Positions 33,208 to 61,050 of a stretch of 64,000 bases of DNA are shown here, piece after piece. This stretch comes from Trichobilharzia regenti (taxonomy: Eukaryota; Platyhelminthes; Trematoda; Strigeidida; Schistosomatidae). Numbering within the stretch: position 1 is the stretch's first letter; each line of letters starts with the position of its first letter. Location: NCBI GenBank assembly GCA_944472135.2, contig OX235267.1, positions 20,443,452-20,507,451 on the forward strand, in the 5' to 3' direction. The translations under genes were made by a program, and so were the position numbers. Below the pieces are notes generated by a model, which ran no database searches, was not told the DNA's origin, and worked only from the letters and a program-made list of their open reading frames with translations.

Positions 33208-33585
33208 TCAGCTATCAAAACACCACGCAAAAGTGCGGAAGGATGCAAAATTTGATATCAACCATATTCTTCGGTTCCTGCAGCAGTAATAGGTACTGCA
33301 AAAATGCTGATAGGGAAATTTGAGACCGAGTACAAGTTTCCGCCAATCTGCAAAGAAATTTATCGAATGACAGTCGTTGAAATGTACGCGAACCTTACTC
33401 GGCATGCCAAAAATCACTGCATGAACCATGTATTTAAGCGTCCTATCACACAAGAAATAAGTAAGTGCTCAAGAACAATATCGAACAACAATTTTCGTAT
33501 AAATTCATCCAACAAGAGCAAAATAAGCACCGAAATCGCGCCTACTGCGTTTGCTGGACGACTAGCTCCAACTCCAATATCCTGA
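33208..33585 (-). other. Open minus-strand stretch with a hydrophobic segment, unidentified
   Basis: Minus-strand reading near 33580-33420 gives SRPANAVGAISVLILLLLDE, a plausible membrane segment, and an overlapping frame runs on to 33208. It abuts the 3' end of the inserted CR1 copy, so it could be an interrupted host exon. Function unknown; low certainty that it is coding. Confidence 0.25.
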
Positions 33586-34012
33586 TTACGAGCTAGTATA
33601 AACCAGTGATTTCTTTGAGCTCGCTTCTTGATTGTGAGGTAGAGGTTCCAGATCTTCGGTGAGCTTCTGCGTAGTAAGTCCCGACACTCGACTGCTTTAG
33701 CTCTGGTAGACTCCAGGAGGAGTGGTGCGGAGATTGGTCGAGATGTGGTTTGTAGTATGCAGTATGTTAGGACTGTATTGCTGCCGTGAATGGAGTTTGA
33801 CCTAACTCTCCTTGGTCATTCGGTGTAGTCATAAAAGCAGAATAGTAATAATAATAATAATAGGTTGTAGTGTAGATAATATAGGTTGAGATAAGTGGAA
33901 TAATAAAGGTGACCTAAGGAAAAGATAGAGTAGTCGGTACAGTGAGAGAAGGCAGAACAGGTCGTGGGGATTTAGTTTGTATGCTTATCCATTGACAGTG
34001 TGGTTTTAAGTT

Positions 34013-34857
34013 TTATGAGGATAAGCCATTGAGACACAAACCTTGCATTTCTGCATGATTGTCTAGCTTACGCGTAAAAATCTTCACAGATGGCGCTGTA
34101 GTCACGGCCAGTGGTAAAGCGTTCCAGAGACGGCAAACTCGAAGTGAAAAGAAATGTGATCGCACTCGAGTCTTTGGTCTCTGGTGTGCTATCCTTAGCG
34201 GGTTACCTCGTGGAAGCCTATAATCGCTTAATGGCAGGATGCTTTTATTTGGGTGGGCCTGGTCATTTAGGATCTGGTAGACGGTGATGAGGTCTCCCCT
34301 GTACCTACGGTAACTAAGTGTGAAAAGTCCTAATTTCTTTAGTCTTTCCTCATATGATTTGTTGCGGAGGCCGATCACCCATTTTGTCGCTCGTCTCTGG
34401 ACACTTTCTAGAATGTTAGCATCCCTTTTGAGTAGCGGAGGTGCAATGATATTATGCACCTCAAGGTGTGGCCTCACATATGCCTTGTATAGCCTTAAGA
34501 ACAGTTCGGGAGTGAGAGCTCCCAGCTGCCTGTGCATAAAGTGTAATGTTGCGTAGGCCTTGGCGACGTCCCTCGAGTAATTTCCACTGGTGTCTAGCTT
34601 TTCTGTTAGAATAAGACCTAGATCACGCTCTGATGGAACACAACTCAAGTTCTGGCCACCAAGGGTGTAATTTACACTCTGTGACCTGCCGGAATGAAGC
34701 TGCACTACTTTGCACTTCTTCAGATTGAAAGGCATTCCGTTAGCCAAAGCCCAATTTCCCAGAGTTTGCAGGTCAGCCTGCAATCTATCTGAGTCTTCCG
34801 ATGAGTTTATTGCTCTCCAAATCTTTACGTCGTCAGCGTAAAGAAGCGCAAAGCAGT
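34013..34857 (-). pseudogene. Family C ORF2: RT palm end, thumb and C-terminus
   Basis: Resumes with LLYADDVKIWRAINSS (about 34850, catalytic YADD) and runs open from residue MQADLQTLGNW to the natural stop at 34013. Includes CKVVQLHSGRS, SCVPSERDLGLIL and NKSYEERLKKLGLFTLSYRR. With the preceding frame it forms a complete RT broken only by the homopolymer change. Confidence 0.85.
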
Positions 34858-35769
34858 TTAGTTGGGGGGGGGCAGGTCATTGATAAAAATCAAAAACATC
34901 AACGGCCCTAGGATAGAACCCTGAGGAACCCCTGATGCCGAGGTGTGCCAGGATGATCGGATGCGGTTGACTTTGGTGCAGAATTCTCTCTCACCTAGGT
35001 AATCTTTCAGCCATGCGAGAAGTGCTCCAGAAACTCCCGCCTTGCCTATTTTGTGAAGGAGCAGACCATGGTGAACTGTGTCGAATGCTTTCGCAAAGTC
35101 GAGAAAGATCACGTGGGCTGGTACCTTTTTGTCCCAGGATAGTGTCCAATCGTTCCAAGCTAGTAGAAGATTAGTCACGCAGGATCTTCCCCTCCTGAAA
35201 CCGTGCTGTGCTTCGTGAAGAAGGTTAGTCCCATCGAAGTATTTTCTCATGTGGTCGTCAATGAGACTTTCCAATATCTTCGATACCACTGGAAGTAGAG
35301 CAACTGGTCTGTAACTGGTCACATTCTGCCGGTCACCACCCTTGAAGATAGGGGATAGGATTGCACGTTTCCATTCACATGGAAGTTTCCCTACATCAAG
35401 GGAGTGTTGGAACAGATCACTTAGGGGTTGACAGAGACTTTCTGAACACTGCTTCAGGACAGATGGTCTGATGCCATCACAACCTGGAGACTTTCCTGAA
35501 GCCAACCGTCCCAATTTTGCAACTACCGTAGCCGGGGTAATTTGAAATGTCCCCAGCAGGTTTTCGTGTGTTGGTTTTGCGATGTAATCTGGATGTTCTG
35601 TAGGGGTAATATCCTCGTTATTATTTAGTTGCCTGTGAAAGGCTAGGCTGAATGTCTCTGCCATTTCAAGACTAGTAAGAGATTTCCCATCAGAACCCAC
35701 TAGATTGCATGCTCCCTGGTTGGTCGGTTTTCTTTCGGCCATAAACCTGTATAGGCTTTTTGGGTTCAC
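34858..35769 (-). pseudogene. Family C ORF2: RT domain, part 1
   Basis: Contains GRLASGKSPGCDGIRPSVLK, NVTSYRPVALLPVVSKILE, HGFRRGRSC, FLDFAKAFDTVHH and GVPQGSILGPLMFLIFINDL. The frame ends at 34858 because a G run (34864-34872) is longer than in the full-length copy. Confidence 0.88.
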
Positions 35770-35943
35770 GAGAAGCTTATTGGCGAGGTTTCCCTAAAAT
35801 GTCCTTCTATCGCTCCGGACTCGTATGTTACATCGATTCCTGAGTTCAAGGTACACTTCATATTCGGGTTGACTCTTCGATCGTCGCCACGCGAACCAGG
35901 CTTTTCGCTTTGCCTGCAGAAGGCGTTGTGTCCCCCTTTTTAG

Positions 35944-36420
35944 CTATGATCGTTGCTTCCTAGCTTTTGGTGAGACTAAAGGAACAGTGTCTGAGACCGC
36001 CTGGTGAATGATTTCCTTACCACTCTCCAGTGTTCTTCTACTGTTAGCTCTGTCCATTTTTAGGCCAGTTTGCTTCAGACAGAAGTCTTCGCATTTTGGT
36101 AAAGTTGGCTTGTTATAACACAGATAGGGCTGTGTATTGTCCCACTGTAAGCGCTCGCGGAGGACTATGTCGAATACTATGACCGCGTGGTCACTACTAC
36201 CTATGGGAGTCGTGATCTGAACGTTTTCCACTAGTAGCTGGTCACTAGTGAGCACGTAATCCAGTCTAGAAGACTTCCCATCAGGGCCCCATCTAGTATC
36301 CATCTTGACATTTTCAGTGAATCCAGCCTTCCTGATGGCATGCAGCAGATTTCGATCAAATCTATCATGTGCGTTTCCCGACACCAAGTTAAGAGACGGG
36401 GCATTGAAGTCACCAGCTAT
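35944..36420 (-). pseudogene. Family C ORF2: endonuclease C-terminal half
   Basis: Reads NAHDRFDRNLLHAIRKAGFTENVK, SSRLDYVLTSDQLLVEN and GSSDHAVIVFDI, the second half of the AP-endonuclease. It has several substitutions relative to the copy at 54.9 kb, including a frame disturbance near 36090, and a TAG at about 35944 just before the linker to RT. The G5 run after it is intact, unlike in the full-length copy. Confidence 0.82.
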
Positions 36421-36504
36421 GACAATTTAATCATAACCCATGTCTTGAGTTGCTGAGATTGTATTTAGCATAACCTGGTTGTGGTCTGCTCCACATGAAG
36501 GTGA

Positions 36505-39340: not shown

Positions 39341-39486
39341 AAAAAAGCACTCTGTATCGCGGTACGTTCAACGTTTGCGTTACATTTTTACGTGATTCGT
39401 TACATAAAATTTATCTTGTTGTAGTACTTGCACAAGTACTATACTACCTCCATACTTGTAACCACTAACTTCCATTTCTAATAGTT

Positions 39487-41028
39487 ATGGTTAGTCAAAG
39501 TAAAAAGCAACGAACCCACTCCCCTGTAAAACTGGTGTCTAATTTAACGTCCTTGATTGCTACATCAAGCAACACACCCCCTACAAACGGCTATAATGAG
39601 TCACATAACTCACTTGTATGCCGTAAGCGTCGAGCTGTAACTGAGGATAAAACTGTACTGACAGCTAGTATTAGCACTACTCCTAAAAATTCAGTACCCT
39701 CTGCTCATACAGAACCCCTCCCTTCACCTTATGTGCTTATCGAAAAACTCCAGCCATCAAGCTCTTCTTCAGTACTATCTTCAGAAATAGAACTTCTAAA
39801 GTTGTCTATAGGAGAACTTAAGGCTGAGTTAAGGGAAATAAAAAACAGCAAGTCAGTAAATGCTGGAAACATCGAAACCGATGCCGAGATATCCAAATTA
39901 TCAGATCAGATCAGCGATATCAGATCGCAGGTCTGTGAATTGACACCTCTAACTATCCTCATGAAAACTGTAAACCTTAACAAGCTTGACACAGAATCGG
40001 TAACTAAGGTAGATAACCTCATTAATTTTGTTACCACAGAAGTAACAAAACGACTCGACGCAAAACTGAGTGCTATTGTCTACAACGTTCCGGACAATGA
40101 GGCACTAAAAAAGGTACAGCGCATCTTACTTAGTGAAGCGAAAATGCCTAACTCCAAGACTAAGTGCTATAGGCTGAAGAAGAGTCAACATGAGAAGTGT
40201 TGTCCTATTCGTTTTCAGTTCGAAACACCGGCAGAGACCAGAAAATTCATCCACTCCCAACACACCCTATCGCAAGCCAGAAACTACAAACATATAAAGG
40301 TCGGGGTGGACAAAACAGTCATAGAAAGGCGCGCATACAACTATCTTGCTAAGACTAATTGTGAAATAGGTAATAGGACTTTGCAAGCAGCCATTATTCC
40401 CAACCCTGTGAAAGATACAGTAGACCCCACCGCATCACCCCTCTCAAAACACACAGAAATATCCCATCAGAGTGCAACACCAGCCGAAAGGCCACTAGAC
40501 TGTAACCAAATAAATAACAAAACCATACCACCTATCACCGCAGAATCTAAAATGCCATTAAATAACCCCAGAAAAAAAGCCAAAACCCCCCGAAATTCCA
40601 CTTTGTCTTCTCCTAGCCATAACTTCATTGCTAAAGGTAAGGAAAATATGCCCCTAAACCATACAAACAAAAACAGTGGCAGCTTAAATAAACCCACACT
40701 TCCCACGGTCAATAGTACTAGCACCCACAACGTGCTAAATCGCACCATGGCACACACTGATATCCAATGTCACAACAATGTCACCCTCAATAGTACAAGT
40801 GGTAATAGTCAGAACTCGGCTATCAACAACTTAGGGTCTTCAGAGTATGGCACACAAACAAATTTTGACCGGATATATGGTACAAGTCTGCTGGGAACTA
40901 ACCCACAATGCAGTACACATGAAACCCACACAAGGACACAACTAGCATCAAACAATAGGTGGAATAATAAGCCATGGTCATCAAAGGATCCAATCATTTT
41001 TTATCCCCCGCGTCCCTGTCAGCGTTGA
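39487..41028 (+). CDS. Family B ORF1 protein (513 aa)
   Basis: Predicted nucleic-acid-binding ORF1 protein of a CR1-like retrotransposon, thought to coat element RNA. Starts at ATG 39487, close after the leader, and ends TGA at 41028. Visible parts: a basic start (SKKQRTHSP); a probable coiled coil at residues ~98-150 (IELLKLSIGELKAELREIKN and following heptads); an RRM-like region at ~195-285 (LSAIVYNVPDNEALKKVQRI, then CPIRFQFETPAETRKF); and a long polar Asn/Ser/Thr-rich, low-complexity tail. Unlike the family C ORF1 it has no PHD finger. Domain calls are by eye. Its last 83 nt overlap the open ORF2 frame. Confidence 0.85.
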   Translation: MVSQSKKQRTHSPVKLVSNLTSLIATSSNTPPTNGYNESHNSLVCRKRRAVTEDKTVLTASISTTPKNSVPSAHTEPLPSPYVLIEKLQPSSSSSVLSSEIELLKLSIGELKAELREIKNSKSVNAGNIETDAEISKLSDQISDIRSQVCELTPLTILMKTVNLNKLDTESVTKVDNLINFVTTEVTKRLDAKLSAIVYNVPDNEALKKVQRILLSEAKMPNSKTKCYRLKKSQHEKCCPIRFQFETPAETRKFIHSQHTLSQARNYKHIKVGVDKTVIERRAYNYLAKTNCEIGNRTLQAAIIPNPVKDTVDPTASPLSKHTEISHQSATPAERPLDCNQINNKTIPPITAESKMPLNNPRKKAKTPRNSTLSSPSHNFIAKGKENMPLNHTNKNSGSLNKPTLPTVNSTSTHNVLNRTMAHTDIQCHNNVTLNSTSGNSQNSAINNLGSSEYGTQTNFDRIYGTSLLGTNPQCSTHETHTRTQLASNNRWNNKPWSSKDPIIFYPPRPCQR

Positions 41029-44000
41029 AAAAACAGCTGGTAGGGATGTTAACACTCCTAAACCACTAGAGCTGGCTCCCTCCTTGCATGAAAACAGGAA
41101 CGGTCTAGTGCACCCGTATCCATTAGGCACACTTGACACCTGCACAAATATAGGTCAAATAAAGAACCCTACCCACTTCTGTAACCTGACTAAAAATAAA
41201 AATTCCTCGGTCTATAGCAAATCCAGTACTCCAAATCTTAATTCTTCACCGAAAACAGCACACACCAACTCGGTAGACATAGGTGAGCATGATGCTGAAA
41301 CTCCTCTTAACATAGGATCATCATGTCAAGCAGAACTACTGGGTGCTGAACCATATTCGGGGCTGACTAACGAACTTAAATACTTCAAATGCTACTTCAA
41401 CTCTCATCTTTACCTAATCCTCATAAATGCTAGATCTGTTCTAAATAAATTGCCGATGCTCAGAGCACTCACAGTAATATACAAACCCCCTGTAATTGTC
41501 ATCACTGAATCTTGGTGTCATTCGAACATCTTGGATGAAGAAATAAGCTTAGATAACTACACACACTTTCGGTGTGACAGGGAAGGTGGTAAGGGAGGGG
41601 GTTGTCTCATGTACTTTCTGAATGCACTTACTGTATCACAGCTAGAAAGTAGTACACTTAACATGCCTGAGACTCTATGGGTTAATGTACACCTAAATAA
41701 CGTAACAGCATTAATTGGATGCACCTACAGAGCACCTGGCACCTTTAGTAATTACGAGACCCAACTTATTAATACTCTGGAGCAATTATCCGACTTACAA
41801 TACGACCATAAGATCCTATGTGGGGACTTTAACTTACCTGAAATCAACTGGGATATACCCACAGGCCCAACTAAATTTGATAAGTTCTTAGACACACTGG
41901 ATATACTTGGCTGGAAACAAACTGTCACTACTCCCACAAGAGGTAATAACGTACTAGACTTAATCTTCTGCCACAATATAAGCCCCCTTTCAACGCTAGT
42001 AGGTTCTGAGTTTCCAGGGAGCGACCACAAAACAGTGGTATGTGCACTGCCACTTCCGCTGAGTAGCAATGCATCTCATACCTCCACTTCACAACAAGTA
42101 ATATATAGGAACTATAGTAAGGCAAACTGGGCCTTGGTAGAATCAATGCTAAGATCCTCCAAATGGGATGAATACTTCACTACTGATGACCTATCGAGAG
42201 CCCTAACCATCTTCTACCATAACACTAACACATGCTTAGATGCTGTCATTCCACTCCAAACACTAAAGGTTTCCCCACACAGAAAGTCATTCATAAAACC
42301 AAAGGATCGTACGAAACTGAAGAGACTCTCAACAAGTTACTTCAAACACCACGACTTTGGCACTCTAGGTCTAATACTTAACACCCTTAGCTCCATCTCA
42401 CAAGCTCGAGATCACCGTATGAGAAAGGAAGAACGCATCGCAGTAGCCAGTCCTGCTAGAGTGTATGCACTCACAGAAATCTTAAGGAAGCGAATGAATC
42501 GCAAAAATCACAGCATTTCTCTCCTCATAGACAAAGGTAGGCTATGCACTAACTCTACAGACATATGTGAACTATTCAACAAAACGTTTGCAGGTAACTA
42601 CATTAAGCCCTCAGTCCAGCTACTCGATATACACCCTATTACTAATATGACACAAACTCCATCTCCACTCACACCAAATAAAATCAGCACTGTTCAATTC
42701 ACTTACGCTAATATTAACCAAACTATAAGAACCCTCAAAAGTTCAAAAGGTTTCGGTACCGACGGTATATCATCTTACTTCTATAAATATGGTGGCCCTG
42801 ACATTCCTCTACTGCTTCTTAAAATATTCACAATGTCCCTAGAAACCCAAACTTACCCTGACATATGGAAGACAACATTCATTATGCCTAAACACAAATC
42901 TGGCTCGAAAACTGAAGTCAGTAACTACCGGCCGATCAATATCACACCTATAGCATCTAGAATCATGGAGAGACTGGTCAAAGATAACCTAATCAAACAT
43001 ATGCTTAGCTGGAATATTATAAGTCCAAACCAACATGGATTCCTGAAATCCAGATCATGCTTAACATGTCACCTAGACTTCTTCAATTTTGTAACCAGCA
43101 GTCGTGACAGACGGCAACTAGTACTTGTCATCTACTTTGACATTTCTAAGGCATTTGACCGTGTTGACCATATACTGCTAACAAATAAGCTGAACTCCTT
43201 AGGAATACGTGACCCATTATTAGGATGGCTTAAATCATTCCTTAACAACAGGTCCCAAATAGTTAAACTCGGGTCTGCAACCTCCAAACCTAGCCCTATC
43301 ACTTCTGGTGTAGTACAAGGTAGTGTCATTGGACCCCTACTATTTACACTATACATCAATGACATATGCGCTTGCTTCACGCACGGGAAACCATTCATCT
43401 TTGCAGATGACCTAAAAGTAGCTTATACATTCCAAAGTGATGACTTAGGGAACTTCGAGAATGTAGTGCAGAAGGAATTAGATAAAATGACTGCTTGGTC
43501 GTCCCTATGGAACCTCCAATTCAATCTGAAAAAATGTGGCTGGATCTGCTTCGGTGCACCCTCAATTGACCTGAAATTAACGCTTCAATCCGCTAACCTA
43601 ACCAGACTCCGAAGTGTCGTTGACCTAGGCCTGAGGTACTCTAGTGACTTGACATTCTCTGAGCAAGTAGCATCACAGACTAGAAAATCGAGGATGCTCT
43701 TAGGATGCATACTCAGGAACTTCCACGACAATGAAGCCAAGCTAATTCTGTACAAAACATGTGTCAGACCACTACTAGAATACTGTCCATTTATTATAAG
43801 CAGCACTCGCACACGTGATAAGCTAAGGATGGAAAGTATCCAACGATATTTTACCTCAAAACTACTTGGCTATGATTGTAAGAAAGACTACATCTCACGG
43901 TGCATGATCCTAAAACTTGACCCACTTTGGACAAGGCGACTTATTATAAACCTAATATTCTTCTTTAAGGTCCTTCACAAAATATCATTCTCAGGTAACA

Positions 44001-44269
44001 GGGACATACAATTCGCACAGGAAGGTTCTTACGATCTGCGTAACCAAACTTCCACAGTGACAACTCATTCTTTTAAGTCAACACTCCGTGAAAACTTCTT
44101 CACAGTCATGTATTCTAAAATATGGAATAGCCTACCCCTAGATGTCAGAACTTGCTCTTCGGTTACAAGTTTCAAACGCTCTCTGCATAGACTGTTTCAC
44201 TCTACTGATTATATTAATAAACTATTTACTCCTAGAACGAATCAACCACTAATCTACTACAGCACCTAA
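40946..44269 (+). CDS. Family B ORF2: AP-endonuclease and reverse transcriptase
   Basis: Intact ORF2 polyprotein. Counting from the TTG at 41084 as residue 1, the AP-like endonuclease starts near 107 (LILINARSVLNK) and shows ITESW (~141), CTYRAPG, LCGDFNLPEINW (~246) and GSDHKT (~312). The RT shows SNYRPINITP (~612), VIYFDISKAFDRVDH (~683), GVVQGSVIGPLLF (~742) and the catalytic FADD (~773). The C-terminus has CVRPLLEYCPF and IWNSLPLDVR. All expected catalytic residues are present. The frame is open from 40946 but has no ATG until after the first endonuclease motif, so translation probably depends on ORF1 (frameshift or reinitiation). Confidence 0.92.
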   Translation, partial: HQTIGGIISHGHQRIQSFFIPRVPVSVEKTAGRDVNTPKPLELAPSLHENRNGLVHPYPLGTLDTCTNIGQIKNPTHFCNLTKNKNSSVYSKSSTPNLNSSPKTAHTNSVDIGEHDAETPLNIGSSCQAELLGAEPYSGLTNELKYFKCYFNSHLYLILINARSVLNKLPMLRALTVIYKPPVIVITESWCHSNILDEEISLDNYTHFRCDREGGKGGGCLMYFLNALTVSQLESSTLNMPETLWVNVHLNNVTALIGCTYRAPGTFSNYETQLINTLEQLSDLQYDHKILCGDFNLPEINWDIPTGPTKFDKFLDTLDILGWKQTVTTPTRGNNVLDLIFCHNISPLSTLVGSEFPGSDHKTVVCALPLPLSSNASHTSTSQQVIYRNYSKANWALVESMLRSSKWDEYFTTDDLSRALTIFYHNTNTCLDAVIPLQTLKVSPHRKSFIKPKDRTKLKRLSTSYFKHHDFGTLGLILNTLSSISQARDHRMRKEERIAVASPARVYALTEILRKRMNRKNHSISLLIDKGRLCTNSTDICELFNKTFAGNYIKPSVQLLDIHPITNMTQTPSPLTPNKISTVQFTYANINQTIRTLKSSKGFGTDGISSYFYKYGGPDIPLLLLKIFTMSLETQTYPDIWKTTFIMPKHKSGSKTEVSNYRPINITPIASRIMERLVKDNLIKHMLSWNIISPNQHGFLKSRSCLTCHLDFFNFVTSSRDRRQLVLVIYFDISKAFDRVDHILLTNKLNSLGIRDPLLGWLKSFLNNRSQIVKLGSATSKPSPITSGVVQGSVIGPLLFTLYINDICACFTHGKPFIFADDLKVAYTFQSDDLGNFENVVQKELDKMTAWSSLWNLQFNLKKCGWICFGAPSIDLKLTLQSANLTRLRSVVDLGLRYSSDLTFSEQVASQTRKSRMLLGCILRNFHDNEAKLILYKTCVRPLLEYCPFIISSTRTRDKLRMESIQRYFTSKLLGYDCKKDYISRCMILKLDPLWTRRLIINLIFFFKVLHKISFSGNRDIQFAQEGSYDLRNQTSTVTTHSFKSTLRENFFTVMYSKIWNSLPLDVRTCSSVTSFKRSLHRLFHSTDYINKLFTPRTNQPLIYYST

Positions 44270-50264: not shown

Positions 50265-51433
50265 CGCCATTAGAGGGTGGCCAAGTTCTAGGAATAACGG
50301 ACAAAATGGACACAAGTGTGAATTATACGGTGAATACAGCGACGGCACATGTAATCACACACTTTACACAGAGACGGTTAGGTGCGCTCCCTCCTGAGCT
50401 CTTTCTAGGGTTGTGCAAAACATACATAAGACCACAGCTTGAAGAGCACAATATCACTACATCGTCACTGCTTAGAAGGGATGCAAACTTTTTGGAAAAA
50501 GGTCAAAGACGGCCGACAAGATAGGTAATGGGTCTCTGAAACAAACCAAGTGGTGGACGGCTAAAGAAATGAGGTTTCTTCATACTCAGCTACCGTCGGC
50601 TTAGGGGGACTTGATTACCGCCTACAAGACAACAAATGACCAGAATCACTCAAACAAAGAGGTTCTGTCATCAAGTACGTATGGGCTTCTTCGTGGAAAC
50701 CCACGAAGGATATTTCACCAGAGGGCAAAGATTAGAGTGCTCTCCCACTTCTTCTCACTGCAGGTTCGCCGTTCCTGGAACTCCTTACCGGCAGATGTAG
50801 CTACGGCACCGTCCGTGGACAGCTTTAAGCGAAGACTAAACAATCATGCAGCGGCACAATGACTGCGTCCAAATGGCCTATCCCATTAAAATATGATGCA
50901 TTATGAAAGGATTAACACCTAAACTCATTGTTTTACTTCACATTCTCTCTTGTCTTACTCTCCTGACTACTCTAAATATTACGTCCCTCACACAGTTATT
51001 ATAAGTGACATTATATAAACATTTATTTATATCGACTTCACACTTAATCAGCTGTCCGTTTCTACCTTTTCTTTATTTTCTTTTCTGTCTTTTAGTCTGC
51101 ATAACCTATCCTAGTTATATCTGTTAAATCTCTTTTTTTGTCGGCGACACCGAAGAACTAACTAGTGAAAGGATCCACTGAATTCACAGTAGAAACACGG
51201 TTTTGACACACCGCATTCTACAAACAACATACAGTTAATGCCAACACTCAAACGTGGTCAACCAAAGCAATTTAACAAAATCCCTACAAAAACCAATACT
51301 TGAAAGCTACGACAGTCGAGTGGCGGGACAAACTACGCAGACGTTTGCCTCACAACCAAGAAATATGCACAAGGAAAACAAAATGGTTTACACTAGCTCG
51401 TAAGAACGGTATTGGATATTGGATTGGATATTG
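50265..51433 (+). pseudogene. Old CR1-like 3' relic, family C (first of three in tandem)
   Basis: Decayed version of the family C thumb and C-terminus: LGALPPELFLGLCKTYIRPQ (50380), LLRRDANFLEKGQRR (50470), ILSYRRLRG (50580), LRGNPRRIFHQRAKIRVLSHFFSLQVRRSWNSLPADVA (50690-50800 as separate blocks). Stops and shifts occur. The 3' end is a heptamer-like tail (51410-51433, repeats of ATTGGAT), immediately followed by the next copy. Confidence 0.75.
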
Positions 51434-52316
51434 CATAATATCATTGCACCTCCGCTACTCAAAAGGGATGCTAACATTCTAGAAAGTGTCCAGAGACGAG
51501 CGACAAAATGGGTGATCGGCCTCCGCAACAAATCATATGAGGAAAGACTAAAGAAATTGGGTCTTTTCACACTCAGTTACCGTAGGCACAGGGGAGACCT
51601 CATCACCGTCTACAAGATCCTAAATGACCAGGCCCACCCAAATAAAAGCATCCTGCCATTAAGCGATTATAGGCTTCCACGAGGTAACCCGCTAAGGATA
51701 GCACACCAGAGACCAAAGACTCGAGTGCGATCACATTTCTTTTCGCTTCGTGTTTGCCGTCTCTGGAACGCTTTACCGGCGGCCGTGACTACAGCGCCAT
51801 CTGTGGAGATTTTTAAGCGGAAGCTAGACAATCATGCAGAAATGCAAGGTTTGTGTCTCAATGGCTTATCCTCATAAAACTTAAAACCACACTGTCAATG
51901 GATAAGCATACAAACTAAATCCCCACGACCTGTTCTGCCTTCTCTCACTCTGTCTTTTCCTTATGTCACCTTTATTATTCCACTTATCTCAACCTATATT
52001 ATCTACACTACAACCTATTATTATTATTATTACTATTCTGCTTTTATGACTACACCGAATGACCAAGGGGAGTTAGGTCAAACTCCATTCACGGCAGCAA
52101 TACAGTCCTAACATACTGCATACTACAAACCACATCTCGACCAATCCCCGCACCACTCCTCCTGGAGTCTACCAGAGCTAAAGCAGTCGAGTGTCGGGAC
52201 TTACTACGCAGAAGCTCACCGAAGATCTGGAACCTCTACCTCACAATCAAGAAGCGAGCTCAAAGAAATCACTGGTTTATACTAGCTCGTCATCAGGATA
52301 TTGGATATTGGATATG
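51434..52316 (+). pseudogene. 5'-truncated CR1-like element, family C (second in tandem)
   Basis: 883 bp nearly identical to 56859-57742 of the full-length copy. The ORF2 end is open from about 51434 (HNIIAPPLLKRDANILESVQ) to the stop at 51877, followed by the family 3' UTR. It ends with GGATATTGGATATTGGATATG, where the full-length copy begins. Confidence 0.9.
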
Positions 52317-52714
52317 TGAATAAGACGTGCTTTTCCTCCCTAACCGGAAATATCCAATTTTGTGAATTATTCGTTTGGGAAACCTGATCTTCCTATCCGG
52401 CGAATTTTTATTCAACCATTTCTTCCTCACCGAGCCTGTGTGTGGTACTTCCCGCTGTCTCGAACTACTGCCAAAGCTTCAGGTGCTACTTCTGTAGCAA
52501 CACCCTCCTCACTCTTTCAAATATACAGGACTTGTGGGTCTGTTACGTGATTGCTGTGAAACCGAATAACCCGAAAGTTACAGGTAAAGTCTAAAGCTTT
52601 TACTTACATACTTTATCCTTCTTTTCTGCGCTCTCTATTGTCTTTTGCTGTAAGTCTATTGGACAAAATAACAGTCTCTTATTATTTAATCACCAGTATT
52701 AATTTAGGAGTAAA

Positions 52715-54406
52715 ATGACAATAGATTCTCAACCTAAAATAAGTAATGGGACATCATACTCTGTAGTTACCAGGGCTTCAGCCAAACTAGGCAAACAGGA
52801 GAAGGTGATGGACTCACGCATACCGGTCCTGAAGACCAGGGCTAATATTCCCAGCTCGTACAGATTACCCATGTCGCCACAGTCCTACAGTGAAGCTGTG
52901 CAAAGTCAGCCAAGTGGATGTGGCTCCACCCCTGTTAACACGACTAGGTTAACAGATCCGAGTGGGAAAATTGCACTAAGTGAGAACTTCATAACACCCA
53001 TCCCCATGGTAGACCATGAAACAAATAGGAAGGCCAAAAAGAAACGTTCACGACGTCGCAAGACGACAAGAACGCTCCCCAAGAAGACAGACGACTGCAA
53101 GGTCTGTGCTTCTGTTGTCGAACAAGCAGACTCTGCTTTCGAATGTAACTTTTGCAACCGATGGGTGCATTGCAGATGCGACAGTGGGGTACCAAAAGCA
53201 TATTATGACTTTATGCGTAAAAACCCATGCCAATGGTTCTGGTACATATGCCCGAGTTGCCGTCCTGATGTAGCCTCGCGTAGTCCTTTGAAAACTAAAG
53301 ATGGCACAGAAGTAGCGGGGAAAAAGGTGAAAAGCTCGACCCCCACCAATCCGGAAGTTAGTACAAACGCGCGTAAACCGGGGATACCAAAATCCTCACC
53401 GGTTAAACTTGTAACTCTTGCCATAACCGCTCCAGACACAGAGGCTGGAGAACCACGGGTTTCCGTCGTTGGAAAAAGACCCCAACCGTCTACCAGTAAT
53501 GCTGGCTATAGCACTGAGACACATAAAAATACCCAGTCGCACCAGTCAAACCAAAACGGTCTTAAAGGTGATCACAAACGTGCGAGGACCGAGCCCAAGC
53601 CCACGGTTAGCAGATCAAATTGTGTAATCCTCTTTAATGTACCAGACTGTAGCAGTAGTCTGCTGAAAGATAGGGCCCTATTTGATCAGGAACAGTGGTC
53701 CATCTTAAGTAGCACACTGGGTTTGGACATCCAACCAGTAAATCTATGCAGATTGTATAGGGGCACTGCTGCACCTGAAGGCAAACCATCCCCACTGAGG
53801 GTAACATTGAGCTCTACCGAGGATGTTGAAAAAGTGTTACTGGCTTCTCAAGTCCTTTCTATAGGGAGGGCCTGTAACATACGTGTTAAGCCAGACAGGC
53901 CGTGGAAGGAAAGACAAATGGCGAGGGAGTCGCCAGAGCTCATTCCTTCTGCCTCCATGGTTGTGCATGGCATTCCCGAACTGGTAACTGGGAACGCCTG
54001 CGAAAAGCATTGTCATGATGTACAACAATGGAGATGGTTAGCATCCCAGATGGCCCTGGGAAGTTCAGGGGCTGTCTCTATTTATAGACTGCCTCGACCC
54101 ACTCATCTTATGTCAATTAACTCGCCACGTCTGTTAGCTGTCAAGTTCAGCTCCCAAGACCAGTTGACTACCGCTCTCCATAGATGGTACGAGACCAAGG
54201 ACAAGGTCAGCAAACACATTCGCTGCTGCGAGAGCCGGCCTCGCACTCAAAGGAGAGAACAAAGCGTAGTAAAAGAAAATCCTCAACCCCTAGTCACACT
54301 ACAGCGGTGCAGCACGGACGATGATAGCCAGTGTCATCCGAGTGCTCCAACTGAACTAGAAGAAAAAAACGCCAACAGGCCGGTTCCTGGGGAATCGGCC
54401 AACTAG
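52715..54406 (+). CDS. Family C ORF1 protein with PHD finger and RRM-like regions (563 aa)
   Basis: Predicted RNA/chromatin-binding ORF1 protein of the element. Starts at ATG 52715, the first in frame after the leader. Parts seen: a basic nuclear-localisation-like run at residues 106-118 (KAKKKRSRRRKTT); a PHD-type zinc finger with ligands C128, C131, C144, C147, H152, C155, C179 and C182 (C4HC3 spacing complete); a Ser/Pro/Lys-rich linker; an RRM-like region at about 302-390 (SNCVILFNVPDC...LRVTLSSTEDVEKVL); and a second one at about 412-500 (SMVVHGIPELV...LLAVKFSSQDQL). The C-terminal codons contain a putative -1 frameshift signal into ORF2 (54364-54400). Domain calls are by eye. Confidence 0.9.
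   Translation: MTIDSQPKISNGTSYSVVTRASAKLGKQEKVMDSRIPVLKTRANIPSSYRLPMSPQSYSEAVQSQPSGCGSTPVNTTRLTDPSGKIALSENFITPIPMVDHETNRKAKKKRSRRRKTTRTLPKKTDDCKVCASVVEQADSAFECNFCNRWVHCRCDSGVPKAYYDFMRKNPCQWFWYICPSCRPDVASRSPLKTKDGTEVAGKKVKSSTPTNPEVSTNARKPGIPKSSPVKLVTLAITAPDTEAGEPRVSVVGKRPQPSTSNAGYSTETHKNTQSHQSNQNGLKGDHKRARTEPKPTVSRSNCVILFNVPDCSSSLLKDRALFDQEQWSILSSTLGLDIQPVNLCRLYRGTAAPEGKPSPLRVTLSSTEDVEKVLLASQVLSIGRACNIRVKPDRPWKERQMARESPELIPSASMVVHGIPELVTGNACEKHCHDVQQWRWLASQMALGSSGAVSIYRLPRPTHLMSINSPRLLAVKFSSQDQLTTALHRWYETKDKVSKHIRCCESRPRTQRREQSVVKENPQPLVTLQRCSTDDDSQCHPSAPTELEEKNANRPVPGESAN
54364..54400 (+). promoter_or_regulatory. Putative -1 programmed ribosomal frameshift signal (slippery site plus hairpin)
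   Basis: The heptamer A AAA AAC at 54364-54370 is read in the ORF1 frame as ..GAA AAA AAC. A 7-nt spacer (54371-54377) precedes a perfect 10-bp stem: 54378-54387 pairs with 54391-54400 (GGCCGGTTCC / GGAATCGGCC, one G-U), with a 3-nt TGG loop. ORF1 stops at 54404. The -1 frame opens at 54355, just after a TGA at 54352, and runs without a stop into ORF2. Confidence 0.7.
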
Positions 54407-55551
54407 TTCGTAGGATAACTCCTCAACCGATAGCCAATATCAAGTCAACTACCCCCCAATACGGGGAAGTGGTGAGACTGACTACCAGTTGCCTGTATAG
54501 TAATGTGAGAGGGCTAAGAGGCAAAATAGCTGAACTTAGACACCTACAATCACAACTAAACTCCAAAATCATAATACTGACGGAAACCTGGCTAACCCCT
54601 ACGGTGGCAGACAGCGAAGTCAGTATAAATGATATGGTCCTAGTCAGGCGAGATAGGGACCTGAAAGAAGGAGGTGGAGTCGCCATATACGTCGACAAAC
54701 AGCTCAGATGTGTTCACGCGACGGACCCTCCCCTCACAGAGCTCCCTGACTCCATATGGTGCCACTTCACCGTTGGGTACTGCAAATATCTAGTGGGCAG
54801 CATTTATCGATCACCTTCATGTGGAGCAGACCATAACCAGGTACTGCTAAATACAATTTCAGCGACTCAAGACATGGGTTATGATCAAATTGTCATAGCT
54901 GGTGACTTCAATGCCCCATCTCTTAACTTGGTGTCGGGAAAAGCCCATGATAGATTTGATCGAAATCTGCTGCATACCATCAGGAAGGCTGGATTCACTG
55001 AAAATGTCAAGATGGATACTAGATGGGGCCCTGATGGGAAGTCTTCTAGACTGGATTACGTGCTCACTAGTGACCAGCTACTAGTGGAAAACGTTCAGAT
55101 CACGACTCCCATAGGTAGTAGTGACCACGCGGTCATAGTATTCGACATAGTCCTCCGCGAGCGCTTACAGTGGGACAATACACAGCCCTATCTGTGTTAT
55201 AACAAAGCCAACTTTACCAAAATGCGAAGACTTCTGTCTGAAGCAAACTGGCCTAAAAAATGGACAGAGCTAACAGTAGAAGAACACTGGAGAGTGGTAA
55301 AGGAGATCATTCACCAGGCGGTCTCAGACACTGTTCCTTTAGTCTCACCAAAAGCTAGGAAGCAACGATCATGGCTGAAAAGGGGACACAACGCCTTCTG
55401 CAGGCAAAGCGTAAAGCCTGGTTCGCGTGGCGACGATCGAAGAGTCAACCCGAATATGAAGTGTACCTTGAACTCAGGAATCGATGTAACATACGAGTCC
55501 GGAGCGATAGAAGGACATTTCAGGGAGACCTCGCCAATAAGCTTCTCGTGA
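54371..55551 (+). CDS. Family C ORF2, endonuclease part
   Basis: The -1 frame relative to ORF1; no ATG precedes the endonuclease (a GTG lies at 54469). AP-endonuclease motifs: CLYSNVRGLRGKIAEL (~8-23 counted from the GTG), LTETWLTP (~37), GSIYRSPSCGADHNQ, IAGDFNAPSLN (~142), SRLDYVLTSDQ and GSSDHAVIVFDIV (~215). Catalytic Asn, Glu, Asp and His are all present. The frame leaves the true path at about 55382 because a G run has four G's instead of the five in the minus-strand copy (35932-35936), and ends at 55551 in meaningless sequence. Confidence 0.88.
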
Positions 55552-57302
55552 ACCCCAAAAGCCTATACAGGTTTATGGCCGAAAGAAAACCGACCAACCA
55601 GGGAGCATGCAATCTAGTGGGTTCTGATGGGAAATCTCTTACTAGTCTTGAAATGGCAGAGACATTCAGCCTAGCCTTTCACAGGCAACTAAATAGTAAC
55701 GAGGATATTACCCCTACAGAACATCCAGATTACATCGCAGAACCAACACACGAAAACCTGCTGGGGACATTTCAAATTACCCCGGCTATGGTACTTGCAA
55801 AATTGGGAAGGTTGGCTTCGGGAAAGTCTCCAGGTTGTGATGGCATCAGACCATCTGTCCTGAAGCAGTGTTCAGAAAGTCTCTGTCAACCCCTAAGTGA
55901 TCTGTTCCAACACTCCCTTGATGTAGGGAAACTTCCATGTGAATGGAAACGTGCAATCCTATCCCCTATCTTCAAGGGTGGTGACCGGCAGAATGTGACC
56001 AGTTACAGACCAGTTGCTCTACTTCCAGTGGTATCGAAGATATTGGAAAGTCTCATTGACGACCACATGAGAAAATACTTCGATGGGACTAACCTTCTTC
56101 ACGAAGCACAGCACGGTTTCAGGAGGGGAAGATCCTGCGTGACGAATCTTCTACTAGCCTGGAACGATTGGACACTATCCTGGGACAAAAAGGTACCAGC
56201 CCACGTGATCTTTCTCGACTTTGCGAAAGCATTCGACACAGTTCACCATGGTCTGCTCCTTCACAAAATAGGCAAGGCGGGAGTTTCTGGAGCACTTCTC
56301 GCATGGCTGACAGATTACTTAGGCGAGAGAGAATTCTGCACCAAAGTCAACCGCATCCGATCATCTTGGCACACCTCGGCATCAGGGGTTCCTCAGGGTT
56401 CTATCCTAGGGCCGTTGATGTTTTTGATTTTTATCAATGACCTGCCCCCCCAACTAAACTGCTCTGCGCTTCTTTACGCTGACGACGTAAAGATTTGGAG
56501 AGCAATAAACTCATCGGAAGACTCAGATAGATTGCAGGCTGACCTGCAAACTCTGGGAAATTGGGCTTTGGCTAACGGAATGCCTTTCAATCTAAAGAAG
56601 TGCAAAGTAGTGCAGCTTCATTCCGGCAGGTCACAGAGTGTAAATTACACCCTTGGTGGCCAGAACTTGAGTTGTGTTCCATCAGAGCGTGATCTAGGTC
56701 TTATTCTAACAGAAAAGCTAGACACCAGTGGAAATTACTCGAGGGACGTCGCCAAAGCCTACGCAACATTACACTTTATGCACAGGCAGCTGGGAGCTCT
56801 CACTCCCGAACTGTTCTTAAGGCTATACAAGGCATATGTGAGGCCACACCTTGAGGTGCATAATATCATTGCACCTCCGCTACTCAAAAGGGATGCTAAC
56901 ATTCTAGAAAGTGTCCAGAGACGAGCGACAAAATGGGTGATCGGCCTCCGCAACAAATCATATGAGGAAAGACTAAAGAAATTAGGTCTTTTCACACTCA
57001 GTTACCGTAGGCACAGGGGAGACCTCATCACCGTCTACAAGATCCTAAATGACCAGGCCCACCCAAATAAAAGCATCCTGCCATTAAGCGATTATAGGCT
57101 TCCACGAGGTAACCCGCTAAGGATAGCACACCAGAGACCAAAGACTCGAGTGCGATCACATTTCTTTTCGCTTCGTGTTTGCCGTCTCTGGAACGCTTTA
57201 CCGGCGGCCGTGACTACAGCGCCATCTGTGGAGATTTTTAAGCGGAAGCTAGACAATCATGCAGAAATGCAAGGTTTGTGTCTCAATGGCTTATCCTCAT
57301 AA
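55371..57302 (+). CDS. Family C ORF2, reverse transcriptase part
   Basis: Open frame carrying the rest of ORF2 after the single-base loss. The upstream frame joins it at about 55382, so the ATG at 55371 is probably not a true start. RT motifs: GKSPGCDGIRPSVLK (~145), SYRPVALLPVVSKILE (~211), HGFRRGRSC, VIFLDFAKAFDTVHH (~278), GVPQGSILGPLMF (~339) and the catalytic YADD (~369). The thumb and C-terminus follow: FNLKKCKVVQLHSGRS, LRLYKAYVRPHLEVHN and VCRLWNALPAAV. All catalytic residues are intact. Nearly identical to the minus-strand copy at 34.0-35.8 kb. Confidence 0.92.
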   Translation: MAEKGTQRLLQAKRKAWFAWRRSKSQPEYEVYLELRNRCNIRVRSDRRTFQGDLANKLLVNPKSLYRFMAERKPTNQGACNLVGSDGKSLTSLEMAETFSLAFHRQLNSNEDITPTEHPDYIAEPTHENLLGTFQITPAMVLAKLGRLASGKSPGCDGIRPSVLKQCSESLCQPLSDLFQHSLDVGKLPCEWKRAILSPIFKGGDRQNVTSYRPVALLPVVSKILESLIDDHMRKYFDGTNLLHEAQHGFRRGRSCVTNLLLAWNDWTLSWDKKVPAHVIFLDFAKAFDTVHHGLLLHKIGKAGVSGALLAWLTDYLGEREFCTKVNRIRSSWHTSASGVPQGSILGPLMFLIFINDLPPQLNCSALLYADDVKIWRAINSSEDSDRLQADLQTLGNWALANGMPFNLKKCKVVQLHSGRSQSVNYTLGGQNLSCVPSERDLGLILTEKLDTSGNYSRDVAKAYATLHFMHRQLGALTPELFLRLYKAYVRPHLEVHNIIAPPLLKRDANILESVQRRATKWVIGLRNKSYEERLKKLGLFTLSYRRHRGDLITVYKILNDQAHPNKSILPLSDYRLPRGNPLRIAHQRPKTRVRSHFFSLRVCRLWNALPAAVTTAPSVEIFKRKLDNHAEMQGLCLNGLSS

Positions 57303-59042: not shown

Positions 59043-61050
59043 AGCCTATGTTAACCATTTTCTAGTAAATTTCTGTGGTTGCCCAAACCCTTCTTGAATG
59101 AATCAGGGGAGGTCGCAGACACTCCTTTTTCTAGGAGTTGGTTCCAAGAGTTTATGACTCGGTGTGAGAACCAGTAATCAACAGTAGTATGATTTCTTCT
59201 TGACTTTTGAACTTTCCTACTGTGTTCTCTAAGGTGTTCCGACCTAGTGGGAAGGAAAAGAGAGAATAGGTCAGGTCCGTGGTCACTACTTAAAATTTTA
59301 AAAGTTGTGATTAAATCTCCTCTCAGCCTACGGTATGACAGAGAGAAGAGATTTAAACTGTCTGGTCTTTCCTCGTATGATAAGTTAGTCACTCCGAGGA
59401 CTATACGTGTCGTCCTACTTTGAACCCTTTCTAGAATGTGTGAGTCCCTTTTAAGACAAGGACTGGCTGCCTGGATACAGTTTCCTGGTCTTGACCTCAC
59501 CAGAGGTGTATATAAAGAGGTGAACATATCCCTAAGGATTCTAGTAAAGGCTCCGCAAATCGCCCATAAGGATCTGAAACTACGTGCAGCCACCTCGCGA
59601 CAGTGTGCTGTAGTTTTCAAATCGTGGCTAACTATAACACCTAAATCCAAATGAGTCTGAACTGATGGGAGCGTTATCCCCTCTTGTTCGTGGAAGCTGA
59701 TGCTTGCTTGTCCGATGAGCATGGCTGCACATTTTTGCCACATTGATAGGGAGCATCCAGTCTCTGGACCACTAAAAATTTGCTGAGGTCTTCCTGCAAC
59801 GTGGGCGTATCACTGTTGCCCTTCAGCCCTCTCCAAATTTTAAAGTCGTCTACGTATAGGACCATAGGGGAATCGTTGAGCAGAGACAACTCATTGATAT
59901 ACAAAATAAATAGGAGAGTTCCGAGTACCATGTCTTATGGCACTCCGCTACGCACTGCCGTCCAAGAGGAGAGTTTAGACTTGATCCTAACCCTCTGCCT
60001 CCTATCCATGAGGAATTCCCTGAGCCAGTTTAGTAATCTGCCTTTGATACCAAGACTTTCCAGCTTCATGTGTAGTCTTTTGTAAGGAACTTTATCGAAG
60101 GCTTTACTGAAGTCTATGAAGAAGACATCAACGGGTCTTCTCTTGTCCCTTGATTTGGCTCAGCTTTCTCTTGCAGTGAGGAAGTTTGACAGACATGAGA
60201 GGTTTCTTCGAAAGCCGTGCTGTGCTCTGGATAACATTTTGTTGTTTTTCAGACATGCGATGATACTTTTCTTGTTGATTGTTTACAGTGTCTTGATTAA
60301 AGCGCTAGTGAGATTAATAGGCCTGTAATTTGAATGGCTTTGTCTTGATTTTCCTTTGTTGATAGGGGTTACTATGGCGTCTTTCCAGTCATGCGGCAAC
60401 ACTCCATTTAGGAGAGATATCCTGAAGATCGTGGTCAAAGGGCCGGCTATGTGAGCTGATAGTTCCTTGAGAAGCCTTGAGTGAAGATTACCAGGACACA
60501 ATGATTCCCCTGCATCTGATTTCATATCGCAGTTGAGCACTATGTCTTGGTCGATATCAACGGAATCTATCCCGTGTCCCTCAGATGCAGCCAGAGCTGA
60601 CCCTATAGGGAGTGATAACTCATGTGTAAAGACTTGGGAGAACTAGTCTTTCATTGCTTCTGCTTTTTCTTGATCTTCGATTGTGTCATTGTTAATAGTT
60701 AGGTTTGGGACATCATTAGATTTTTTTATTCCTGATGTTCATGTACAAGAAAATTTTCTTGGGTTGGGTCTTTGCATTTTGAGCCAGATGTGCTTCGAAC
60801 TTCATCCCTGATTGGCGGATTTCTGCGATAGCTTTATTCCTAGCAGCGTTGTATAATTTCCTGGTCTCAGGAGTCTCAAGTGTGGCAAACAGGTTCCAGC
60901 ATTTGTATTTACGTCTGAGTAACTTACGAATCTCTTGATTTATCCAAGGAGGGCACTGTTTCCGACCCTTTGGGACAGACCAAGGAAATTCGTAACATCT
61001 ATGGCCTGGAAAATTATACCACAGAAATATTGCTTGATTCATCTGTCTTA
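59043..61050 (-). pseudogene. Jockey/CR1-like retrotransposon relic, 5'-truncated
   Basis: Read right to left: WINQEIRKLLRRKYKCWNLF (about 60940, linker before RT), GNLHSRLLKELSAHIAGPLT (60490), HDWKDAIVTPINKGKSRQSH and NYRPINLTSALIKTL (60395-60290), then decayed FFIDFSKAF- and QHGF-type segments, GTLLFILYIN (59925), VLYVDDFKIWRGLK (59865, catalytic YVDD) and the C-terminal frame 59743-59051 with SHILERVQSRTTRIVLGVTN, LSYRRLRGDLITTFKIL and VINSWNQL. Several stops and shifts. Related to, but distinct from, families B and C. Confidence 0.82.

Follow-up and report, generated by a model that had tools for sequence, protein, structure and literature searches.

Among long interspersed nuclear elements (LINEs) with two open reading frames (ORFs), reinitiation is the presumed route to ORF2 in SART1, where a UAAUG stop-start sequence is the means of coupling it to ORF1, and in the I factor. 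For Dictyostelium TRE5-A and TRE3-A, which are non-LTR (long terminal repeat) retrotransposons, a -1 frameshift is described as necessary for ORF2 (PMC5911963), and the gag-pro sites of mouse mammary tumor virus (MMTV) and human T-cell leukemia viruses (HTLV-1 and HTLV-2) use the slippery heptamer A AAA AAC (PMC12789967). Recoding is also discussed for LINE expression in connection with the telomeric elements HeT-A and TART; for mammalian L1, the same source holds it likely that initiation is of an unknown, novel type (PMC5009743). Here, we describe the ORF1/ORF2 junction of a CR1-like LINE which spans approximately 52.3–57.7 kb of a 64,000-nucleotide (nt) stretch of the Trichobilharzia regenti genome (assembly GCA_944472135.2, contig OX235267.1, positions 20,443,452 to 20,507,451; hereafter, the window). 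Judged from its sequence, this junction is very likely a programmed -1 ribosomal frameshift signal for the making of an ORF1-ORF2 fusion.

Comparison with the described systems outlines both familiar and unfamiliar traits of this locus. As in the gag-pro region of MMTV and HTLV, the A AAA AAC heptamer is placed before the end of the upstream ORF, an RNA structure follows a few nt downstream, and enzymes are encoded in the -1 frame; unlike these viruses, the element is a LINE without LTRs or protease and offers a plain hairpin, while a pseudoknot is described for MMTV (PMC12789967). With TRE5-A and TRE3-A it shares the two-ORF organization and an endonuclease of the apurinic/apyrimidinic (APE) type, the differences being that those elements are amoebozoan and bear a zinc finger in ORF2, and the comparison concerns the requirement for a frameshift rather than site or stimulator (PMC5911963). 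The type III LINEs of the CR1 clade described by Metcalfe and Casane resemble it in APE plus reverse transcriptase (RT) in ORF2 and, putatively, in a PHD-like finger of ORF1, although the word “frameshift” occurs 0 times in the main text of that paper (PMC4120745). In the telomeric LINEs the difference is that a frameshift is said to be needed for the gag gene of HeT-A and that the polyprotein mode of TART is called unknown (PMC5009743). The coupling exploited by SART1 needs a start codon at the stop, which the element considered here does not have. The first-pass annotation of the window had set the junction against other two-ORF LINEs as elements that usually rely on reinitiation or internal starts, and this contrast has to be softened because the Dictyostelium TRE elements precede (PMC5911963). 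In the open literature searched, no A AAA AAC-type site was found at the ORF1/ORF2 junction of CR1 or any other animal LINE; most subscription papers, including the original descriptions of the schistosome CR1 elements SR1, pido, and Perere, lay outside this search. Frameshifting by -1 is already well known, and what we describe is an unusually complete and conserved case in a group where it is unexpected.

In the window, the features of a -1 frameshift site are present together, i.e., an in-frame heptamer, a structure at a distance of 5–9 nt, and a long overlapping -1 ORF without AUG (Table 1). The heptamer sits within an A7 run (54363–54369), the hairpin (54378–54400) reads GGCCGGTTCC/TGG/GGAATCGGCC with nine Watson–Crick pairs and one G-U, and the ORF1 stop is located 33 nt after the heptamer. 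The -1 frame is uninterrupted over 54355–55551, and its first ATG (54634) lies downstream of both catalytic motifs, YSN (54496) and TETW (54580), while the AUGs at 54503 and 54629, also past the ORF1 stop, belong to another frame. Every coordinate proposed at the first pass for heptamer, spacer, and hairpin held on re-reading, as did the exact -1 relation with its TGA 9 nt before the heptamer, the absence of an ORF2 AUG ahead of the first catalytic motif, and the ORF1 TAG just beyond the stem. Folding, suggested at the same time, yielded a stable hairpin of -18.0 kcal/mol (z -3.3) with 0 of 200 shuffles equally stable; when longer flanks were included, 6 of 200 shuffles folded as well (z -2.2 and -2.3). 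Ribosomes translating ORF1 would encounter the hairpin, 7 nt away, on arriving at A AAA AAC; in some of them the hairpin would stimulate the Lys and Asn tRNAs to slip back one base, and these ribosomes would bypass the ORF1 stop and continue through endonuclease and RT. The predicted ORF1-ORF2 fusion would cross approximately 41 residues (54370 to 54492) before the endonuclease, and ribosomes that do not slip would terminate and give ORF1 alone. We infer from the sequence that slippage probably takes place with some efficiency and that the fusion is probably the working form.

The coincidence of heptamer and hairpin was assessed in two ways. Both strands of the window were scanned for heptamers of the XXXYYYZ type (Y = A or T) with a hairpin of at least -15 kcal/mol stability in the next 32 nt, and among 569 heptamers the sole hairpin-followed site was the junction, along with the reading of this A run shifted by 1 nt; element-wide, no other hairpin reaches -18 kcal/mol within 32 nt. 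In addition, the 13-codon tail of ORF1 was re-drawn synonymously 20000 times, keeping the protein fixed and taking codons according to ORF1 usage: 14 draws reached ten pairs, and 4 were at least as stable as -18 kcal/mol.

Between two divergent families compared at the level of DNA, the heptamer, the length of the spacer, and the pairing are conserved; two more, known by protein only, keep the coding footprint. Searches for copies were run on the 954-Mb assembly of the species (548 contigs), where a second family, B, was found via the T. regenti protein P0103 (2256 candidates, of which 150 were scored; 30 loci were retrieved at first and two later, 32 in total). Its ORF1 is 52% identical in protein to that of the window family, A, with a third-position identity of 0.445 over 537 aligned codons. 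The family-B junction consists of AAAAAAC, the spacer TACAACG, the stem GGCCGGTTCT/GGAATCGGCC with loop ATC, then AAC and TAG, and its hairpin is estimated at -16.2 kcal/mol. Both families agree in heptamer, in the lengths of spacer, stem, and loop, and in distance to the stop, whereas the spacer (GCCAACA in A) and the loop (TGG in A) differ in 6 of 10 letters (3/7 and 3/3, respectively) against 1 of the 27 letters of heptamer and stem (Fisher P 0.0006), this sole stem change being C-G to U-G with pairing preserved. In family B the TGA of the -1 frame directly abuts the heptamer, so that for a ribosome translating ORF1 there is no entry into ORF2 ahead of this point; 26 of 30 loci have an ORF2 without stop as far as the locus edge, and in all 30 the first Met is residue 91 of the -1 frame, after TETW. 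Synonymous positions behave in the same manner: third positions coincide between A and B in 12 of 13 tail codons vs. 76 of 174 in the compared part of ORF1 (Fisher P 0.0008), fourfold sites in 4/4 vs. 14/46 (Fisher P 0.013), and heptamer plus stem codons taken alone give 8/9 (P 0.012). Ranked by third positions, the tail comes first among the 13-codon windows of ORF1, its value being reached in 2 of 525 windows. The peptide encoded by the -1 frame in the overlap (QQAGSWGIGQLVR in the window family) lies ahead of every ORF2 AUG, and over its 14 compared codons the two families share 79% identity.

The first-pass annotation looked to an alignment of copies for retained pairing and compensatory changes. 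Heptamer, spacer length, and stem are indeed kept between A and B, while changes within the stem are limited to the C-G to U-G replacement and to one G-C to A-U replacement accompanied by an ORF2 stop. The latter belongs to a single family-B copy (L095, G000:C3:65060954-65061254) that differs by 4 substitutions over 299 nt; two of these face each other in the outermost stem pair. Because one of these stem changes puts a stop into the ORF2 frame, this copy was rejected as an example of functional covariation. A search with its junction revealed no second copy carrying both changes at 100%: of 40 scored one was L095 itself and 39 stood at 99%; the paired change may be a coincidence or templated repair within the hairpin.

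Within family A, a 181-nt junction query returned 40 scored junctions of 915 candidates, all 100% identical, and an ORF1 query from S. turkestanicum (85 scored of 2638 candidates) returned 83 family-A rows with 0 internal stops, 81 of them with a 567-amino-acid (aa) frame. Inspection covered 41 family-A rows from 40 distinct places (L072 is the window, and L002 and L055 are one place fetched twice). Heptamer, spacer, stem, ORF1 stop, and the -1 opening, 9 nt before the heptamer, are kept in 41/41, and both ORFs are open in 26 of them (25 distinct places; ORF1 of at least 500 aa upstream, ORF2 to the locus edge). The first ORF2 Met was residue 94 in 8/8 family-A loci. The doubts voiced at the first pass, that other copies might lack heptamer or stem, that the family consensus might contain an ORF2 AUG, or that the -1 relation might be an indel of one copy, gained no support from these loci: the signal is kept in all 41 family-A and 32 family-B rows, the first Met is distant in both families, and the existence of copies with both ORFs open means that the -1 relation is theirs. 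Since the queries by which most junction loci were chosen included the junction itself, samples drawn in other ways were inspected as well. A query with the endonuclease and no junction (149 scored of 11329 candidates) revealed a 982-aa ORF2 frame in 25 copies and a longer, fused ORF1-ORF2 frame in 0; the 8 rows picked from these 149, namely the first five plus three others, comprised four of family A with the signal, one of family B with the signal, one of family B truncated within the stem, and two without junction. A further query, limited to the front half of ORF1, had 1863 candidates, of which 130 were scored; its first 20 rows form a junction-blind sample, and 18 of them carry the identical 43-nt signal.

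Two more distant ORF1 proteins, P0003 from a metagenome contig and P0004 from S. turkestanicum, are 54% and 41% identical to ORF1. The tails of all four ORF1s conform to K N x x [RG] P V [PL] x E [SL] A [ND], where the columns encoded by the heptamer (K, N) and by the stem (P, V, E, A) are invariant and conservation within the tail is lowest at the loop codon and both spacer codons. Mean identity is 0.63 in the tail vs. 0.33 in the preceding 30 columns, and all ten pairs (10/10) can be encoded from each of the four tails. Relatives were found in neither the viral_contigs nor the genome_contigs scan; the signal pattern itself occurred 0 times in viral_contigs and in one Vibrio contig of genome_contigs, which was set aside, and a tail pattern like that of P0004 occurred 0 times in the T. 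regenti assembly.

Several observations weigh against the frameshift interpretation or narrow its foundation. Junction DNA comes from two families only, P0003 and P0004 being available as protein. Two copies of the junction-blind 20 (L076 and L083) have a 1-nt deletion in the heptamer. The junction of family A is not significantly less variable than its flanks (0/43 vs. 11/257 columns, Fisher P 0.38); its copies are young, for which reason conservation within this family proves little, and we dropped it as evidence for the signal. At the level of amino acids, 65 of 177 windows in the C-terminal half of ORF1 are as conserved as the tail, and when all codon positions are considered, 25 of 525 windows reach the A–B identity of the tail. 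That the protein tails are compatible with the stem says little because 395 of 20000 random octapeptides can also be encoded with a full stem, and the tails are homologous rather than independent. Finally, overlapping coding in two frames also restrains the third positions of the tail, although such a restraint presupposes that the -1 frame is translated ahead of any AUG.

The alternative ways to obtain ORF2 or to explain the junction account for these data less well. Reinitiation after the ORF1 stop or a near-cognate internal start, for instance at CTG 54493 just before the endonuclease, with heptamer and hairpin being incidental, has precedents in SART1 and the I factor, and in P0008, a partial protein annotated in Heterobilharzia, the position of this CTG is occupied by Met. 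However, in the loci read no AUG precedes TETW in either family, the next AUGs are in another frame or past the catalytic motifs, CTG 54493 is CTA in family B, and the -1-frame peptide of the overlap is conserved between the families; the lack of a usable AUG together with the CTA of family B makes this route improbable. Still less probable is that the tail is conserved merely as a C-terminal protein motif of ORF1 (KN..RPVP.ESAN) with the RNA structure as its by-product. The retention of tail residues in four ORF1 families agrees with such a motif, but synonymous sites of the tail are conserved as well, the least conserved residues are exactly those of spacer and loop, and synonymous re-drawing rarely produces the hairpin.

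Transcriptional slippage on the A7 run, joining the frames in part of the mRNAs, might be considered given that the run is found in families A and B and is shortened in one of the 20 blind-chosen copies (L083). A polymerase, however, needs no in-frame hairpin 7 nt downstream, and none of the 149 scored copies has a fused frame, which leaves this mechanism with a very small chance. The other frame break inside ORF2 of the window copy could raise the suspicion that the -1 relation merely reflects decay of a single copy, and this is refuted by the identical scored junctions, by the copies with both ORFs open, and by the same layout in family B. The programmed -1 frameshift is retained as the favoured reading.

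Table 1. Positions of the junction and of the element's coding parts, numbered from the first letter of the window.
Feature	Position	Strand	Remark
TGA opening the ORF2 (-1) frame	54352..54354	+	sequence
Slippery heptamer A AAA AAC, ORF1 frame	54364..54370	+	identical in family B
7-nt spacer	54371..54377	+	equal length in family B, 3/7 letters differ
10-bp stem with 3-nt loop (54388-54390)	54378..54400	+	family B also 10 bp and 3-nt loop
ORF1 stop TAG, 3 nt past the stem	54404..54406	+	heptamer-stop distance constant in 73/73 rows (72 distinct places)
ORF1 (first ATG to TAG)	52715..54406	+	cysteine-rich, putative PHD-like finger in front half
ORF2, endonuclease part	54355..55551	+	-1 relative to ORF1; Pfam PF03372 and PF14529; no AUG before 54634
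ORF2, reverse transcriptase part	55359..57302	+	other frame in the window copy; Pfam PF00078

The element is a CR1-like LINE with APE endonuclease and RT in ORF2 according to Pfam, and the name of the clade is taken from the first-pass annotation and the trematode literature. The ORF1 frame is open over 52703–54406 with its first ATG at 52715. ORF1 is 99% identical to a T. regenti protein, three further proteins of this species match at 81–90% and one at 63%, and the T. regenti protein P0105 shares its start Met with ORF1. The PHD-like finger is suggested by weak matches of a profile built from the four ORF1s to solved chains, the best being an ARID4 chain (E 0.0053) and the best PHD-named one, also weak, MLL1 PHD3 (E 0.021); no PHD match was obtained with Pfam. 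ORF2 of the window copy is itself broken, with endonuclease and RT in different frames, on which the first-pass annotation was silent. Comparison with other copies traces the break to an indel of one base within a short run of purines, and no second slippery site was found in the endonuclease/RT overlap of the window copy. Across the family-A loci, single-base indels in this purine run (within 55359–55551 in the window) split endonuclease from RT in 13 of 41 rows and occur in three forms (11, 1, and 1). Nine places, including the window, are mutually identical over 2 kb round the heptamer, three of them being broken and six open at the purine run; the breaks may stem from indels that recur at this spot, from gene conversion, or from errors in the assembly.

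Other LINE sequences surround the element. A truncated copy of its 3′ part (51432–52317, 98.98% identical) is placed directly upstream in tandem, and a minus-strand copy without ORF1 and junction (97.4% identical) occupies 33567–36504. A second CR1-like element at 39469–44269 (+) has an ORF1 frame of 519 aa (39469–41028) and an ORF2 frame of 1107 aa (40946–44269) with endonuclease and RT; there, ORF2 is in the +1 (= -2) frame and has no ATG before 41456, which is downstream of the first endonuclease motif. On the minus strand, 59051–59809 is a 252-aa open frame which by eye resembles the C-terminal part of another LINE ORF2.

Taken together for the family, it is rather probable, though less so than the frameshift reading itself, that a whole schistosomatid lineage of CR1-like LINEs makes its endonuclease and RT only as a fusion through A AAA AAC and a hairpin that predate the split of the main families; ORF1 and ORF2 would then be made in a fixed ratio, and RT would reach the ORF1 ribonucleoprotein by covalent linkage. 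Translation of the second ORF of LINEs is a long-standing open question, and the cis-acting signal of this junction is short, complete, and present in many copies. If the reading is true, an animal LINE would have arrived by convergence at the gag-pol solution of retroviruses, and the ORF1:ORF2 ratio of a LINE would become a measurable quantity.

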